Assembly: GCA_018401695.1 (NCBI GenBank)
Contig: JAGYKD010000001.1
Span: forward strand, 1-64,000
DNA length: 64,000 nt
Source: Flavobacteriales bacterium
GTDB lineage: Bacteria; Bacteroidota; Bacteroidia; CAIKAF01
Direction of reading: 5' to 3'
Part shown: one piece after another, positions 41,835 through 54,711 of the stretch
Numbering within the stretch: position 1 is the stretch's first letter
Layout: each line of letters opens with the position of its first letter
Position numbers and translations under genes: made by a program
Notes under the pieces: generated by a model
Told to the model about the DNA's origin: nothing
Seen by the model: the letters and a program-made list of their open reading frames with translations, nothing else
The model's database searches: none

Positions 41835-44240
41835 TTATGGGTCAGAAGGCTCTTCTTGAGCGGTTGCCTTTTGAACCAAAACAATGGTTCCATTAAATGC
41901 ATCCAGTTCCACCAAATCGCCATTGGAAAGTGCATCCATAATTCCGGAAACGCCAACCACGGCAGGAAGTCCATACTCCCTGGCTACAACGGCCCCATGG
42001 GAAAGAGGACTACCCATTTCGGTTAGCAAAGCCGAGACAACGGTGTAGTAAGGTGTCCAACCTATATCGGTAAAACCACTGACCATAATTTCGCCGGGTT
42101 TTAATGAAGTGGCGTCTTGCATGGTTCTAACCAAACGCACCTGAGCCTTAATTTTTCCTGGACTAACAGGAACACCAAGCCATTGGCCCTCTTCACAATT
42201 TTTTCTTAGTTGGGGCAATTTAGGGAAAGGGCGCCCTTGAAACAGGTCCGGAAATTGAAACTTTCCTGCGGTATTATAGGCACGTCTTCTGCCTTCAACC
42301 CTAGCTTTTGCATCTGGTAGCCCTTGTTTAAACAACAAATTATGTTCTTCGGGCAACAGAAAGAAAATATCCTCGGCTTCCTTAAGGAGGCCCTGTTGTT
42401 TGGCCAAATTGCCTAAGTGTCGATATCCTTGACGCAAACGGTGAATGATACGAATGGCCAAAGCTTTTGATTTTTCACGTTTGAGCACAGCACCTCTTGA
42501 CAGTTTTGCTAAGAAGGACTCTCCCGCTTTTAACTTAGGGAGCTTAGAAGCCTTGGAAGTAAGGGCATCTGCTTTGCCTCCACTGCGCACCATTTGTTGC
42601 AACATTCCCAGCAAGCTTTCGGGGGCTTCTTCCCAGGTTGGTTCTAAAAACTCGGCCTCACGCACACCTCGGTGCCCATGCCTCTCCATAAACGCTGCAA
42701 ATTTATGGGTTACCGACTCTGGCGCATACCGTTCCAGCATAATGCGGGCTTCGCCTAAATCGGCTTGGGCAAAGGCTTGATCAAAACTGGGGTATTGCAA
42801 AATTTCGTCTGTCAAATCTCCGAGTCGGGCCAAGGGATCGGCGCTTTCAATGGTGCCAATGTTGGTAAGCAGTTGGTTGGCCAAACCTGTAGCTGTTCCT
42901 TGATCCGGGAACCGCTTTTCGAGCACTTGAAGTAGGGCTGCATAATAAGATCCCGATTGGCTGGAGGTAGCAAAATGGTGCATAAAAGCTTGCTCCATTC
43001 GCTTGGCTCCCTGGGCCAGTTGCTCCAGTAAGCGTTCTGGATTATCGGCCCAAATGGGTTGCCAATATTGGGCAGATTGTTCCAACCTGCGCAATCTACT
43101 TCCGGCAGACTGAATGTAACGCACTTGCCTTATAAAATTTAAGCTGCGCCGGAAGCCCTTGGTTTCCTTATCAACCTTAGGTGTACTAAGGGTTCTTCCC
43201 ACAATGGAGCGTTCAATATTTTCTTTTTGATTTAAAGCCGTATGCCTGGCAAAATCATATAAAGAACTAAGGTTAAAAAACAAGCGTCCATAAAAAACCT
43301 GCACGTATCTAGGATTAGGAGTATTGTTGGGTAGGGCACCGGACCTTTTGGCAAAATCCCTTAATCCGGCTTCAATAGCCCCCCCAAATAAACGTGCCGT
43401 TAAAGGACTTACGGCTCCCGGCATCATTTCTCCAATATTGCCTAAGGTAAACCAATCTTGAGCCTCACTATCGGGCCCAAGTTGGGTATCGAGTTCGTTT
43501 ACATGAAAGGGAGAAGTGGTGGTAACCGGACGGCATTGGAGCCACCATAGTTTACCTTGGTCGTCAATGGCCCATTCCAGGTCTTGGGGAGCACCCAACC
43601 GCTCCTCCATGGTTTTTGCGCCTTCAAAAAGCGCTTGAGTCCACTCGGGTTTCCAGGCGTTGTCCTCGGGCATACCCATGGCTTTTCCTTTATTGCTCCC
43701 CCATTTTGGAATGATGGAATCTAGGCTATTGGCCATGCCGGATACCAATTGTTCCCCTTGCCCCTGCACAGCGGATAGAAGCATTCGGTCGTACATATTC
43801 CTTACCGGATCAATGGTAAACAATACGCCAGCCCAAATGGGCTCTACCATTTGTTGGACAACCACCGAAAAGTCATTGGAATCATTCGGGCTATCCTGAT
43901 AGGCTTTTACCCTGTCGCTATCGGCAGATGCCTTGCATTTTAGAGCAGCAATCCAGACCTTCTCGGCCAGAGGTTTGACGTTTAAAATAGTCTCATATTG
44001 CCCCGCAAAGGATTGATCTTGACCGTCTTCGTTTTGAGCAGAAGATCGGACAGCTACCGGATTATCTGCAAAGGCCTTTAAAGCCTCCGACAATTCTCCG
44101 GGCATGTTGTCTGATTCCAAGTTTAGCGCAAAAAAAGGAGGTACATTCAATCCCGCCTTGGAGAGTTGAACTAAGCCCTTAAACTTTCCGCCGGCATTTA
44201 TGGGGGGTTCTTGAGAAACAGGTAAAATAATATGGCTCAT
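41835..44240 (-). CDS. PEP-utilising phosphotransferase (PEP synthase / rifampicin phosphotransferase-like)
   Basis: An 801-residue enzyme with the architecture of ATP-dependent PEP synthase relatives: an N-terminal ATP-grasp domain (about 1-240) with AVRSSAQNEDG and SFAGQYET and, near 227, DLEWAIDDQGKLWWLQCRP; a helical middle region (about 250-700); and the C-terminal swivelling phosphohistidine domain with SPLSHGAVVAREYGLPAVVG near 748. It lacks the C-terminal PEP/pyruvate-binding TIM barrel of true PEP synthase, as in rifampicin phosphotransferase, so the acceptor is probably not pyruvate. Its start overlaps the stop of the RDHS-motif gene (ATGA). Confidence 0.88.
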   Translation of the reverse strand: MSHIILPVSQEPPINAGGKFKGLVQLSKAGLNVPPFFALNLESDNMPGELSEALKAFADNPVAVRSSAQNEDGQDQSFAGQYETILNVKPLAEKVWIAALKCKASADSDRVKAYQDSPNDSNDFSVVVQQMVEPIWAGVLFTIDPVRNMYDRMLLSAVQGQGEQLVSGMANSLDSIIPKWGSNKGKAMGMPEDNAWKPEWTQALFEGAKTMEERLGAPQDLEWAIDDQGKLWWLQCRPVTTTSPFHVNELDTQLGPDSEAQDWFTLGNIGEMMPGAVSPLTARLFGGAIEAGLRDFAKRSGALPNNTPNPRYVQVFYGRLFFNLSSLYDFARHTALNQKENIERSIVGRTLSTPKVDKETKGFRRSLNFIRQVRYIQSAGSRLRRLEQSAQYWQPIWADNPERLLEQLAQGAKRMEQAFMHHFATSSQSGSYYAALLQVLEKRFPDQGTATGLANQLLTNIGTIESADPLARLGDLTDEILQYPSFDQAFAQADLGEARIMLERYAPESVTHKFAAFMERHGHRGVREAEFLEPTWEEAPESLLGMLQQMVRSGGKADALTSKASKLPKLKAGESFLAKLSRGAVLKREKSKALAIRIIHRLRQGYRHLGNLAKQQGLLKEAEDIFFLLPEEHNLLFKQGLPDAKARVEGRRRAYNTAGKFQFPDLFQGRPFPKLPQLRKNCEEGQWLGVPVSPGKIKAQVRLVRTMQDATSLKPGEIMVSGFTDIGWTPYYTVVSALLTEMGSPLSHGAVVAREYGLPAVVGVSGIMDALSNGDLVELDAFNGTIVLVQKATAQEEPSDP

Positions 44241-45226
44241 GAATTGCTATGATTCTTGCGGGCTCCGCGTTCCAAAATGCCCAAAAAACTTTGATTGCCC
44301 AAATGCAAGTGGCCCCAACCCTCTTCAATTTGATAATGTTTACCCATCTGAAAGGTAAATCTATCTAAGGTTTCGAATCTAAGGCTTAGTGGTTCTTGTT
44401 TGGGTCCGGTTTGCAGCAACAAATCTCCGAAAGCCTGTCGAATAGGTTGCGAGGGGCCAGAAATCCAAGGGCCTACAGAAGCTGAAGATGCCGCACAATA
44501 GCCGGCTCTCAGAACGGGCAAATCACTAAATTGCACTAAGGAGAGATTAAAACCCCTACCTTTAGTGTCAAACCCTGTAAACCAAGAGTGTGCGGTCCAT
44601 GCATCCCAATCTCTGTGCCCTGTACTGTGGTCGCGTGCACCATGGGCTTGCCATTTGTGGCTTTCGCCTGACAGTTCTAAGCGACAGGTGTAGTTTCCGG
44701 CCTGCTCTATATGGCTTGTTTTGAGAGATTTCAACTTTTCGAATTGGGCATTGTTCCAAGGCATGGAAGCTAAAGCACGGGCAATTTGTTCCTTATCGCG
44801 GAGTTGAGAAAAATCAAAGATGGGCGAGGATGGTTCAAAATCTGCTTCAAAGCGCACTGCGTCAGAGCCACCTTGGGGAGAGGGAAAGCTTCCTTCGAAC
44901 CGAATAAGCCAACCCGCTCCTTTCCGCTCAAAAGATAAGCCGTTAGCAGCAGGCCATTTGCCCGGTTCGGAGGGGAAAATCCCTTCCAATATCCATTTTT
45001 TGTGGTTGGGCATACGTAGCGCAAACCAAAGTTCGGATTGGTTACCACTGCGTGCTGCCAGGCGAGCTACCCAAACGAACCCTTGGGGTGACATGCCATA
45101 AAAATAGTAGCTGTCTGTAGCCAAAGGATGTTCAAGCGCTTTAAAGTTGAGGGCTTCGGCCGGAGGAAAAGTTGCCGTGTCTCGTTTGCCCAACATAAAA
45201 TTTTTGGCTAGCCAGTATTTAATCAT
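44237..45226 (-). CDS. RDHS-motif protein (CrtC/AttH-like, DUF7064/7065-like), partner of the PEP-utilising enzyme
   Basis: A 329-residue protein, mostly beta by appearance, with no signal peptide or membrane helix. The diagnostic stretch is GARDHSTGHRDWDAW near 195, resembling the RDHSWG motif of the hydroxyneurosporene-synthase/AttH-like beta-barrel superfamily; FALRMPNHKKWILEG near 70 and RFEADFEP are other framework pieces. Function unknown. Start ATG 45226 is chosen because a TAATTTTG box ends 6 nt upstream. It overlaps the phosphotransferase gene by four bases. Confidence 0.78.
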   Translation of the reverse strand: MIKYWLAKNFMLGKRDTATFPPAEALNFKALEHPLATDSYYFYGMSPQGFVWVARLAARSGNQSELWFALRMPNHKKWILEGIFPSEPGKWPAANGLSFERKGAGWLIRFEGSFPSPQGGSDAVRFEADFEPSSPIFDFSQLRDKEQIARALASMPWNNAQFEKLKSLKTSHIEQAGNYTCRLELSGESHKWQAHGARDHSTGHRDWDAWTAHSWFTGFDTKGRGFNLSLVQFSDLPVLRAGYCAASSASVGPWISGPSQPIRQAFGDLLLQTGPKQEPLSLRFETLDRFTFQMGKHYQIEEGWGHLHLGNQSFLGILERGARKNHSNS

Positions 45227-45232
45227 AGGGGT

Positions 45233-45240
45233 CAAAATTA
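45233..45240 (-). promoter_or_regulatory. -7 box of the RDHS/phosphotransferase operon
   Basis: TAATTTTG on the minus strand (45240-45233), 6 nt before the ATG at 45226 and overlapping an in-frame TTG that might otherwise be taken as the start. Confidence 0.65.
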
Positions 45241-45555: not shown

Positions 45556-46440
45556 ATGAAGTATGTTATTTTGGCGGTGTGGGTGGTTTTTGCTTGCAGC
45601 CCAAATTTGGCGCCGGAACGCTATACGCCTCAGATTACTTGGGCTTTGACCGATACCTTGGATGTGGATGCTGCGGGTGCGGCTTGGATGCACGAGCAGG
45701 GGTATAGCTACTTAATGGTGGTGGAATCCGATGCTTTGGGCCGCTACGTTCGGGTGCTTGATGCCAAGGATCGAGAAAAAGACATGGCACAATTGAGTCG
45801 AGACAGCGTTTGGGTTAAAGTGGGCCGAAGTGCTCTTCCCAGCAAAAAGCTGCAAAATTTGGAAAGGACGGCGGGGCACGGCAAAAAGAGGAGGCTAATA
45901 AATGTCTTGAAACCCTGCACCTTATTCACCGCAGTTTATGCGCAAAAAAACGGATTGTGGAATCGCTGCAGTAACCAAAGTATACAGCTGATTGACAGCA
46001 GATTTGAGGAAATGACTTATGCCGACATCAGCCTTCGGTCGGCATATCATGCAAAAAGTGGGCGGATTATTGTTCAGGCGCGAAACCAAAGCAAAGTGTC
46101 CATTCCCATATTTGAGTCTGGGCAGCTTAGCCGGCTTAAATTTGAGGGACAAGGCAGAGGTAAGCATGGCATTCATGCATTCACCCCCAATGAGGCTTTT
46201 TTCACCACCTATTTGGCTCATGGCAGCCTATCGGTGGGGTCGGATTGGAAGACCCTATTGAATGTACCTGTAGATGCGGTACTTGGATCAAAAGCCCATG
46301 GAACCTGGAGTTTTAAAGGTAGTATGGAAGAACCTTGGAAAAAACGGGGAGGAAGTATTGTACCGGAAGTTAGGTTTTGGGTTCAAGTTTCCGTAAAGGG
46401 CAAGCGCAGGGTTGGTGCAGTAATGCTGTGGAAACCCTAA
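45556..46440 (+). CDS. hypothetical lipoprotein
   Basis: Protein of 294 residues with a short lipoprotein signal (YVILAVWVVFAC, Cys near 14). The mature region is unrecognised: mixed alpha/beta, with IIVQARNQSKVSIPIFESGQ suggesting a beta domain and a basic C-terminus. The promoter just before 45556 rules out the 40-residue-longer frame. It precedes the disrupted response-regulator gene, whose -7 box overlaps this gene's stop codon. Confidence 0.75.
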   Translation: MKYVILAVWVVFACSPNLAPERYTPQITWALTDTLDVDAAGAAWMHEQGYSYLMVVESDALGRYVRVLDAKDREKDMAQLSRDSVWVKVGRSALPSKKLQNLERTAGHGKKRRLINVLKPCTLFTAVYAQKNGLWNRCSNQSIQLIDSRFEEMTYADISLRSAYHAKSGRIIVQARNQSKVSIPIFESGQLSRLKFEGQGRGKHGIHAFTPNEAFFTTYLAHGSLSVGSDWKTLLNVPVDAVLGSKAHGTWSFKGSMEEPWKKRGGSIVPEVRFWVQVSVKGKRRVGAVMLWKP

Positions 46441-51098: not shown

Positions 51099-54000
51099 TT
51101 AAGAGCGAATGAGCCTAAAGTAAGCCAATTCCCCATTTTTAGTTCTAATTTGAAGGGTGTATACCCCTTTGGCTAAATCACGGACATCCAGGCGTCCGGT
51201 TTCAGCTTCAAAAGCGATATGGAAACTTCTTCCTGAGGCGTCAAGCACCGAAACCGATTCTACAGAGATCTCAGCAGGTAAGCTAAGGAAAACAAAGTCA
51301 GTACTTGGATTGGGTGCAAGAACTACTTGCTCTACCCATGAAGAAGAACCAATTCCCATAACCGTGCCAATGGTAAAGCTAATGCTGTCCTTACAACCGT
51401 TTGCATCGTTTGCATATACCACATAAGCTCCGGGAAGCAATGCGTTGTCGGTAGCTCCACTACTGCCGTTGGACCAGTTCAACATAATGTTCCCTGTTCC
51501 ACCTGTGGCGGTTACCGTGGCAGACCCATCTGCATTGCCTGGGCCGGTAGCATCGCTAGTAACCACAGACAAGTTGATGGCAGGAGGATCGGTTAAGGTA
51601 TATGGACCAGCGTTTACCACGCAACCTGCCATATCCGTAACGACTACATTAAATGTGCCTGCGGGAAGGTTGGGGCTTTGGGCAGTACTGCCATTGTCCC
51701 AGGCATAGGTAAATCCGGGAGTACCACCATTTACAGTAAGCACTACTTGGCCGGAATCACCCGCACACAAAGGCTCAATTACCTGACCGTTTACGGTAGG
51801 TGCCCCGATGTTTGCGACTACCGCCGTATCAACCAAAGTACAGTTGTTGGCGTCGGTGATGGTAACTATGTAATTAGCTGCAGCCACCAAGCCTGAACTT
51901 GGCCCTTGATTGCCATTCGACCAACTGTAAGTAAACCCACCATTTCCACCGGAAGCGGAAGCAATCGCTTCCCCGTCGCTTGCGTTGCAGTTTGCGTCGG
52001 TTATATTGAAGTTGTTGGTAATGGCCGAAGGCTCATTAATGGTGGCTTGAGCCGTATCAGAACACCCAAGCGGATCACTCACAATCACTTGATATTGACC
52101 TTGACCAGCACTTAATGAGTCACCGTTAGCCCCATTGCTCCAAGTGTAGGTTAGGGTGCCATTGGAACCACTGGCATCAACCAATATATATCCATTTTGA
52201 CCAAAACAGTCGGCGTCGGTTGCTTGTATATTATTGATCACAGGAGGTGTAGCTGCTTGTACCACAACCGTATCGTTTAAGCTACAGTTGTTGGCGTCGG
52301 TAATGGTTACAATGTACTGACCGGGGCTTATGTTTTGAAGAGAAGCTCCAGAGCCCCCATTACTCCAAGTGTAGTTGAAGCCACCTGCACCACCGGCAGC
52401 GTTTACCGTGGCTGTTCCTGATGCTCCGGTACAACCTGAAGCTGTGCTGCTTATTTGGCTGGTGATGGCCGGTTGACTAGGAATGGCAATTGGCGGACTT
52501 GTGGTGGAGCAACCCACATTATCGGTTACAGTAACCGTGTAAGAGCCTGCTCCGGCTGTAAGGCTGCTGCCTGTAGAACCATCGGACCATAAATAATTGT
52601 ATCCGGGTTGGCCTCCACTAACGTTAATTTGAATGGAGCCATTATTGTCTCCATTACACAAGGGAGCACTTATGGTTCCCGGCACAATATTAGGGCTACC
52701 TGGACTAACCAAACTAGCCGTATCTATGGCGCTACAACCTCCACTGTCCGTTACTGTTATGATATAGGTGCCGGCATTCAAGTTTTGGATTCCGGCGGTA
52801 GTTGCCCCTGTACTCCAACTATAGGTGTACACATTATATCCACCATTGGCCGTAACGGTTGCATCTCCATTTGACTGTCCACAGGTAGGGTCGTTCTGAC
52901 TTATGCTTAGTGTCAATGGATTGCTAGGTCCTACAATTTGAACCGGTCCGGAAGTAACGCTACAGTTGCTGGCATCCGTAACGGTAAGGGTATAAGTACC
53001 GGGGCCGGCATTGAGTGTTGGGTTTTGACTTCCATTGCTCCAGGCGTAATTATAGCCCGGGGAACCACCGGTAACTGTGGGCGTAGCCGACCCGGTCTGT
53101 CCAAAGCAAACCAAGGGAGAGGTGGTTATGTTTTGAATAACTGGTGCAGCTGGATTACTCAACACCACAGTATCTGTAATGGAACAACCGCTGGTTGGAA
53201 GTGTTGCGGTCACAATATAGGTCCCTGCGGGCACATTTTGGATGGAAGCACCCGTACCTCCATTGCTCCAACTGTAGTTGTAGGGACCGGGATCGCCGGT
53301 AATGGTTACGGAAGCTGAACCGTTGGATTGGTTACAACCCGGAGGCGTAGTTTGAAAACTAGAGGATAAGTTAGGACAGGGAGGCTGCACATTCATACGT
53401 AATCCGTAGGCATCGGTTATGTTGAAATTCTCAAAGGGCTCCCATCCAACAGTCAACGCAGGAGCATTCACCCAAAAGGTGTTGGTATTAAAAATAAAAT
53501 TTGTGGTATTTACAGGTACGGGGGTGTTGCCTTCTACCATACAAATGGCGTAACGGCCTGGCTGTAGGTTAATTGGGCCATTCAGCACCGGTAAATTCAC
53601 CCAGTTATTAAATCCGGCTGGCACGGTAAAGCTGGCAGTAGTTCCAATTTGTGCACCCGGAATTCCGGTTTGGCTCGCTTGTCTAATAATCAAGTTAAAG
53701 GTGGTGCCTGTTGCATTGTTTTGGGAATTATTTACCCAAACATCCACGGTAGTTAAATCAACGGCGGTTTGCATCTGATAAACCGCCCCAATTTCTCCGG
53801 GATTAGGGTTGCCAACACTACCGATGGTCAATGACCCGGTAGCCACATTGTCGTCCCGAGCAAAGGTAGAATCGGTCACATGGAACAAATAAGAAACAGT
53901 GTCGTTGGTGGAGACCGTATTTATAGACGCTAAAGCCGTGTAACGAATACGGTAAATGCCTTGTTGGCTGGGAGTCCATGGACCCAATTGAAAGTTTTGA

Positions 54001-54638
54001 GATGCACCCGACGCTACGTTGTTGGACAAGGGGCTATTAAAGGTTTGCAACACGCTGTTGGTTTGCGCATCAATAACCTCAACACGCATGCCCATTCCGT
54101 TGGCAGTTTGGGAACCTACATTGGTTACATCCCCATCAAATGTTTGTGCTTGCACATGTTGCAAGGGCACACGCGTGTATTCCGAACCAAAAAGGGCCGA
54201 GGTTATGGAAACATCGTTAGGGTTGCTTGGAGAGATTGACCGGTAAGCAACCGTAGAGTTTAATTGGTTGGTCAAACACTGGAACTCGGTCAAAAGCAGC
54301 TGAAAAGTTCCTGAGCTTGGTGCCGTCCAGGTAATTTTGGACTGCAAACCGCAAAAATCGTCGTTATAGGCTACTGGTGTGCCTTGTGCATTCTGAATTG
54401 TCAATTCAGTATCAAAACTGGCCGAGCCCCCGTCGGTTGGACACATAGAAAACTCATAGGTCACTCCGGCGACCGCTGTAAAGGGAAGCAAATCACCGGC
54501 CCACACCGCAGCCTCTGTTTGCCAATTGGCCGTAGGGTTAAGGGTCACATAAACCGCCCCCCCTGAACATTGGGCATGGGCTTGTATACCAATACCACCC
54601 AAAAAAAATAAACTAAAAATAAAATAAAATTTCCGCAT
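51099..54638 (-). CDS. large secreted T9SS protein with nine SprB-type repeats
   Basis: Surface or secreted protein of 1179 residues. Signal peptide MRKFYFIFSLFFLGGIG to HAQ; an N-terminal prepeptidase-like domain (20-125) with SMCPTDGGSASFDTE; a CARDB-like region (to about 400); nine repeats of about 75 residues from about 415 to 1090, each with (N/T)YxWSNG, AGxYxVTVTD and paired Cys; and a C-terminal type A T9SS sorting domain (VLAPNPSTDFVFLSLPA to YFRLIRS). The ninth repeat has lost its first Cys. Start ATG 54638 gives the signal peptide; a longer frame does not. Such proteins are adhesins or gliding components, but binding is unknown. Confidence 0.93.
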   Translation of the reverse strand: MRKFYFIFSLFFLGGIGIQAHAQCSGGAVYVTLNPTANWQTEAAVWAGDLLPFTAVAGVTYEFSMCPTDGGSASFDTELTIQNAQGTPVAYNDDFCGLQSKITWTAPSSGTFQLLLTEFQCLTNQLNSTVAYRSISPSNPNDVSITSALFGSEYTRVPLQHVQAQTFDGDVTNVGSQTANGMGMRVEVIDAQTNSVLQTFNSPLSNNVASGASQNFQLGPWTPSQQGIYRIRYTALASINTVSTNDTVSYLFHVTDSTFARDDNVATGSLTIGSVGNPNPGEIGAVYQMQTAVDLTTVDVWVNNSQNNATGTTFNLIIRQASQTGIPGAQIGTTASFTVPAGFNNWVNLPVLNGPINLQPGRYAICMVEGNTPVPVNTTNFIFNTNTFWVNAPALTVGWEPFENFNITDAYGLRMNVQPPCPNLSSSFQTTPPGCNQSNGSASVTITGDPGPYNYSWSNGGTGASIQNVPAGTYIVTATLPTSGCSITDTVVLSNPAAPVIQNITTSPLVCFGQTGSATPTVTGGSPGYNYAWSNGSQNPTLNAGPGTYTLTVTDASNCSVTSGPVQIVGPSNPLTLSISQNDPTCGQSNGDATVTANGGYNVYTYSWSTGATTAGIQNLNAGTYIITVTDSGGCSAIDTASLVSPGSPNIVPGTISAPLCNGDNNGSIQINVSGGQPGYNYLWSDGSTGSSLTAGAGSYTVTVTDNVGCSTTSPPIAIPSQPAITSQISSTASGCTGASGTATVNAAGGAGGFNYTWSNGGSGASLQNISPGQYIVTITDANNCSLNDTVVVQAATPPVINNIQATDADCFGQNGYILVDASGSNGTLTYTWSNGANGDSLSAGQGQYQVIVSDPLGCSDTAQATINEPSAITNNFNITDANCNASDGEAIASASGGNGGFTYSWSNGNQGPSSGLVAAANYIVTITDANNCTLVDTAVVANIGAPTVNGQVIEPLCAGDSGQVVLTVNGGTPGFTYAWDNGSTAQSPNLPAGTFNVVVTDMAGCVVNAGPYTLTDPPAINLSVVTSDATGPGNADGSATVTATGGTGNIMLNWSNGSSGATDNALLPGAYVVYANDANGCKDSISFTIGTVMGIGSSSWVEQVVLAPNPSTDFVFLSLPAEISVESVSVLDASGRSFHIAFEAETGRLDVRDLAKGVYTLQIRTKNGELAYFRLIRS

Positions 54639-54711
54639 CTCCGTAATGTTTTTCGGAGTGAATTTAAGGCTTTTTTTGTCTGCAAAAACCAATTCAATAG
54701 ATATTTAGGCC

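Follow-up and report, generated by a model that had tools for sequence, protein, structure and literature searches.

The window analysed here, 64,000 nucleotides of a Flavobacteriales bacterium genome, carries what we take to be a real and conserved two-gene module for the ATP-dependent dehydration of an alcohol. One gene would encode a kinase and the other a phospholyase (probability about 0.6), and the alcohol is probably hydrophobic, with a hydroxyl that is tertiary or otherwise unreactive. Dehydration of this kind is known from 25-hydroxysteroid kinase (25-HSK) and 25-phosphosteroid lyase (25-PSL); here, the kinase is of the PEP type. This reading is supported by a fold and motif shared with 25-PSL, by the company of kinases that the lyase family keeps in other bacteria, and by the start-stop overlap of the two genes.

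Organisation and conservation of the gene pair

The pair consists of a gene for a protein with an R-D-H-S motif (the RDHS protein) and a gene for a PEP-type phosphotransferase. Their features, together with a divergent neighbour, are as follows.

44237..45226, reverse strand: RDHS protein gene, 329 aa, predicted phospholyase (AttH/25-PSL-like double beta-barrel), from its ORF, orthologues, fold matches to 2ich, 7a0q and 9g4c, and a profile match to the DUF7065-like family
44696..44713, reverse strand: H172-x-E-Q-x-G177 motif, from alignments
44612..44635, reverse strand: R198-D-H-S-x-G-x-R205 motif, in which D199 is the counterpart of 25-PSL Asp176 (Asn in 9g4c), from alignments and the PDB entry
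44237..44240, reverse strand: ATGA, the four bases in which the RDHS stop and the kinase start overlap
41835..44240, reverse strand: PEP-type phosphotransferase gene, 801 aa, predicted kinase of the pair, from Pfam, NCBIfam and a PDB profile match
43509..44087, reverse strand: ATP-grasp (PPDK_N) domain, residues 52-244, with an N-lobe shorter than in rifampicin phosphotransferase, from Pfam (E 1e-39) and a PDB profile match
41997..41999, reverse strand: His748 codon in TEMGSPLSHGAVVAREYGLPAVVGV, the predicted phosphohistidine, without variation across the genus, from alignment and a PDB profile match
41889..42101, reverse strand: swivelling phosphohistidine domain (PEP-utilizers), residues 714-784, from Pfam (E 3e-18)
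45556..46440, forward strand: divergent gene, predicted lipoprotein (lipobox VFAC), beside the pair throughout the genus, from its ORF and genus comparison; no Pfam match

As originally predicted, the two genes overlap by four bases (ATGA at 44240-44237), and because they overlap they are probably co-transcribed. We place the start of the RDHS gene at the ATG at 45226, giving 329 aa; the alternative TTG at 45235 is less likely because a MIK/MLK start is common to the orthologues. The single promoter that had been proposed found no backing: a sigma-70 scan at the pair gave no signal above that of shuffled sequences, and all that was seen was one site resembling TAATTTTG, at a distance of 14 nt from the ATG.

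The two genes adjoin in 6/6 genomes of the genus, with protein identities of 42-88% (one genome close, at 87-88%, and four distant, at 42-47%), which argues that their pairing is beyond chance. GC and GC3 of the pair resemble those of neighbouring genes; this rules against recent foreign DNA and suggests that the pair is old in the genus. On one side, all genus genomes read have the lipoprotein gene, for which identity across the two sub-groups of the genus is only about 29%, and an ABC-F gene, which lies two genes from the pair; on the other side the window has an aconitase gene, the distant species a uvrA-like one. Further along the window (51102-54692, reverse strand) is a gene for a secreted 1197-aa protein that combines nine SprB repeats with a Por secretion tail, by these features a likely type IX secretion substrate.

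Outside the genus, no RDHS protein turned up in the Bacteroidota searched (two overlapping sets, of 395 genomes from the class and 296 from the phylum), and the Rv3169 family model had no match in 61 Bacteroidota genomes. Searches with the window protein itself gave no direct tblastn match among the plasmids and, among genome contigs, a sole match to a genus member. Three PEP-type relatives in other Bacteroidota (L035, L036 and L038) have no RDHS gene nearby and a different recurrent gene set, and that of the nearest family relative (G009) likewise has no RDHS neighbour. The gene set of these three loci is shared with a Roseinatronobacter plasmid (L018), where it includes a UbiA prenyltransferase, a DUF3419 protein and an AMP-binding protein, and is apparently another undescribed use of PEP-type enzymes.

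Fold and family of the RDHS protein

A structure model of the RDHS protein, built from a six-sequence alignment (pLDDT 75.7, pTM 0.75), has the double beta-barrel AttH-type fold, in keeping with the CrtC/AttH-like barrel of the original prediction. Its matches far above all others were AttH (2ich; Z 22.1, rmsd 3.5, 269 residues), kievitone hydratase (Z 19.5), 25-PSL (9g4c; Z 17.9, rmsd 4.3, 265 residues; Z 17-18 over 265-268 residues for 9g4c, 9fzn and 9g2i) and the fungal Diels-Alderases Fsa2, CghA and Phm7 (Z 15-16). CrtC, whose catalytic residue is Asp268 (PMC4717167), shares the double-barrel lipocalin-like fold according to the literature. AttH, kievitone hydratase and CrtC nevertheless have weak or no sequence similarity to the RDHS protein, which has no Pfam match to the CrtC family (PF07143) up to E 1.

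Profile comparisons point to another relative. We gathered DUF7065-like proteins from plasmids using the DUF7065 model and two tblastn searches, and aligned 22 of them. The genus profile of the RDHS protein aligns with these 22 (hhalign probability 97.6, E 4e-12) with the motifs H-x-[DE]-Q-x-G and D-[HR]-S-x-G-x-R in register, and the window protein has the same Gln-to-Asp spacing, 24 residues, as the first sequence of the alignment. The DUF7065-like profile in turn matches close orthologues of the window protein (hmmsearch, E about 1e-9 to 3e-10) and, in the PDB, 25-PSL (E 6.9e-10). The 25-PSL motif, GSRDRSWGVR (RDRSWG), aligns with the RDHS motif, in which D199, S201, G203 and R205 are invariant across the genus; the window protein lacks the motif Trp (STG/SRG versus SWG), and the H-x-E part of the first motif is absent from 25-PSL. 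The 25-PSL structure with phosphate and product (9g4c) is of a D176N variant; its depositors therefore regarded the motif Asp as important, and we presume this residue, D199 in the window protein, to be catalytic. With 15 bits against a cut-off of 27 for Pfam DUF7065 (PF23213) and 17.9 against 150 for the NCBIfam Rv3169 family, the window protein is, as judged from its sequence, a divergent relative of the DUF7065/Rv3169 family and not a curated member. In the literature searched, outside subscription journals, two papers name 25-PSL, as a proposed enzyme, and we found no mention of DUF7064 or DUF7065.

Elimination of phosphate, as a lyase, is the most likely activity of the RDHS protein. Against this assignment count the scores below the curated cut-offs, the missing motif Trp, the absence of H-x-E from 25-PSL and the fold, which lies nearer to AttH and to kievitone hydratase, a water-adding enzyme, than to 25-PSL, with the Diels-Alderases following. 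This ranking of structural matches would suit a hydratase or an isomerase/cyclase of the kievitone-hydratase, CrtC or Diels-Alderase type that works ahead of the phosphotransferase or after it, the product then being a phosphorylated secondary metabolite, not an alkene. We consider such an enzyme improbable: the profiles tie the RDHS family to 25-PSL and not to hydratases or Diels-Alderases, and the family-wide presence of kinases of unrelated folds fits a phosphorylated substrate, not hydration. The hydratases are not known to have a kinase partner.

Kinases beside RDHS homologues in other bacteria

The pairing of an RDHS homologue with a kinase recurs, unannotated, in many other bacteria. 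In 16 whole plasmids, picked for carrying RDHS homologues, two of the seed proteins having originally been found beside PEP-type kinases, we mapped 63 APH domains, 36 PEP-utilizer domains and 54 RDHS places (including a few near-duplicates, each counted once irrespective of relatedness); an APH or PEP-type kinase domain lay within 2.5 kb of 39 of the 54, as compared to a mean of 3.1 and a maximum of 13 expected from 2000 circular shifts. As a control, P450 genes of the same plasmids were near a kinase domain in 7/82 cases (Fisher p 8e-15). APH domains were within 2.5 kb of 31/54 RDHS places, and PEP-type domains of a minority (10/54).

Nearly all annotated regions that we read have a small-molecule kinase near the RDHS homologue; no kinase was present in the region around that of Sphingomonas paeninsulae (L067). 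The kinase is of the APH type in Methylobacterium, Rhodococcus ruber, R. aetherivorans, R. rhodochrous, Sphingopyxis and Sphingomonas MM-1, ecdysteroid-kinase-like (EcKL-type) in Diaphorobacter, and of the CPT type in M. branderi; the R. ruber APH gene matches 3ats/3att, which we take to be Rv3168. The original prediction had named a failure of the two families to co-occur elsewhere as its refutation, and RDHS homologues do have PEP-type phosphotransferases as neighbours in Rhodococcus, in Mycobacterium and in others; such partners include those of Rhodococcus ZPP, Rhodococcus sp. 008, M. branderi and M. avium, the last with three pairs. Start-stop overlaps of RDHS and kinase genes occur in three further loci (L065, L071 and L076), and no RDHS-kinase fusion was seen in the bacterial loci read. 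Where the partner is another kinase, the RDHS homologues sit among catabolic genes for acyl-CoA, alcohol and aldehyde dehydrogenases and P450s.

The partner kinases belong to unrelated folds. In a tree of 21 PEP-type enzymes, the label 'RDHS-partnered' changes at least three times; RDHS-partnered enzymes thus occupy at least three separate places, and the kinase did not have this pairing from its origin, a point against the kinase and phospholyase reading. Taken with the partners of the APH, CPT and EcKL types, the tree suggests that the lyase has repeatedly been paired with any kinase that accepts the substrate.

Some loci depart from the two-gene arrangement. Mycobacterium avium plasmid pP7a has three separate pairs of RDHS and PEP-utilising genes (L075 815-3318, 6761-9606 and 15662-18401); the PEP-utilising gene scanned there has no ATP-grasp domain, and another source may therefore supply the part that uses ATP. 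In Mycobacterium branderi (L041 2795-7779), the PEP-type parts are split over two proteins that flank the RDHS gene, one with ATP-grasp and swivel and the other with a long N-terminal (substrate-type) region and a swivel. Three more loci (L064 4893-10426, L073 1-8050 and L070 4911-10885) include RDHS homologues of Methylibium petroleiphilum PM1, Rhodococcus oxybenzonivorans and Paraburkholderia PGU19. Those of PM1 and R. oxybenzonivorans lie in bacterial microcompartment loci with an aldehyde dehydrogenase and a HAD hydrolase, in PM1 also with a PEP-type PPDK-like enzyme, and that of Paraburkholderia PGU19 has PEP-type domains nearby. In the microcompartment loci, ATP-driven alcohol dehydration possibly feeds an aldehyde into the compartment.

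The PEP-type phosphotransferase and the proposed reaction

The 801-aa kinase combines the ATP-grasp and phosphohistidine domains that had been predicted for it, and Pfam matched no C-terminal TIM barrel of the PEP-synthase/PPDK type; the swivel extends to residue 784 in a chain of 801. The phosphohistidine signature TEMGSPLSHGAVVAREYG is preserved and shows no variation across the genus. This is the layout of rifampicin phosphotransferase (Rph), with ATP-grasp, central substrate domain and swivel bearing the catalytic His in one chain, and Rph enzymes are its closest solved relatives (PDB profile; Listeria enzyme, E 6e-69). The window kinase differs from Rph in substrate, in its shortened N-lobe, in its genetic partner and in sequence (208 bits against the cut-off of 999 for the curated Rph model NF041857). 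Its own structure model (pLDDT 44) was too poor for use.

This kinship with Rph, and an ABC-F gene two genes away in all genus genomes read, would be expected of a detoxification or resistance module, in which phosphorylation, as carried out by Rph, would inactivate a natural product, with the RDHS protein binding or modifying this drug. Such a role is unlikely, given the low score against the curated Rph model, the catabolic rather than resistance genes around the RDHS partners of other kinases, and the presence of the pair in every genus member searched, beside housekeeping genes and not on a mobile element. A PigC-like ligase that phosphorylates a carbonyl or hydroxyl and drives the condensation of two small molecules, with the RDHS protein as substrate-holding or cyclising partner, is very unlikely, since the scores for PigC (236 bits) and RedH (222 bits) fall far under their cut-offs of 1300 and 1350 and no pyrrole or prodigiosin-type genes lie nearby.

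In the kinase and phospholyase reading, the ATP-grasp domain would take a phosphate off ATP and load it onto His748 in the swivel, as homology suggests, and the swivel would carry it to a hydroxyl of the substrate in the central domain, with ATP converted to AMP and Pi as in Rph. The phosphoester would then be handed to the RDHS double-barrel protein, a step to which family, motif and gene neighbourhood point, where D199 and the surrounding R/S/R residues would eliminate the phosphate and so create a C=C bond, in the manner of 25-PSL. The net scheme would be R-OH + ATP -> R-O-P, followed by R-O-P -> alkene + Pi. The original prediction of a two-part system is thereby retained as to the phosphorylation of a probably hydrophobic substrate; what changes is the net reaction, which, with an RDHS protein that most likely eliminates phosphate as a lyase, is ATP-driven dehydration and not phosphorylation or detoxification alone.

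Comparable division of labour is found in ACAD11, an acyl-CoA dehydrogenase whose kinase domain phosphorylates a hydroxyl and whose second domain eliminates the phosphate; it differs from the window pair in having an APH-type kinase, a flavin dehydrogenase fold and no RDHS protein. The nearest parallel is in Sterolibacterium denitrificans, where 25-HSK, a 43-kDa APH-like phosphotransferase, phosphorylates a tertiary alcohol and a separate lyase, for which no candidate was seen near the 25-HSK gene, then eliminates the phosphate to give an alkene (PMC8449060). This lyase carries the name 25-PSL in later PDB entries. It shares with the window RDHS protein the fold, the R-D-x-S-x-G-x-R motif and detectable profile similarity, and both pairs would perform a two-enzyme, ATP-dependent dehydration. 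With so close a functional parallel described, calling the window pair an undescribed system was too strong. The two systems differ in substrate (a 25-hydroxysteroid), in host (an anaerobic sterol degrader) and in kinase: 25-HSK, the characterised partner kinase, is of the APH type, whereas the window kinase (PPDK_N and PEP-utilizers) is not, which counts against the lyase reading. The Rv3168-Rv3169 operon of Mycobacterium tuberculosis likewise places a kinase-like gene beside a gene of the RDHS family (Rv3169 family) (PMC5340868), although that kinase is of the APH type and the window RDHS protein scores far below the curated Rv3169-family cut-off.

Neighbouring genes name no substrate, which also counts against the lyase reading. 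Hopanol (diplopterol) is disfavoured, as the squalene-hopene cyclase N domain is absent from 6/6 genus genomes (it is present in 7/7 other family genomes searched). A 1'-hydroxy-carotenoid is a weak lead: three genomes have a Caroten_synth (CruF-type) gene at about 8 kb from the pair, but this gene is on a separate contig from the pair in another (G000) and also occurs in relatives without the pair.

The family-wide association with kinases is the part that would surprise a specialist. We give about even odds to the broader proposal that RDHS/DUF7065-like proteins form a large unrecognised phospholyase family that supplies the shared second half of modules for ATP-driven dehydration, for which unrelated kinase folds (APH, ecdysteroid-kinase-like, CPT and PEP-type, the last also as split sets and in microcompartment loci) have repeatedly been recruited as the first half; the window pair would be its Bacteroidota branch, with a PEP-type kinase and probably an isoprenoid or lipid alcohol as substrate. 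If this is true, a large set of 'hypothetical' DUF7064/DUF7065 proteins, including that of the co-regulated Rv3168-Rv3169 operon of M. tuberculosis, would gain a testable function, and the PEP-type version would represent a new role for that enzyme class. Anaerobic sterol side-chain dehydration, so far one biochemical curiosity, would become a general bacterial strategy by which unreactive hydroxyls are removed at the cost of ATP.
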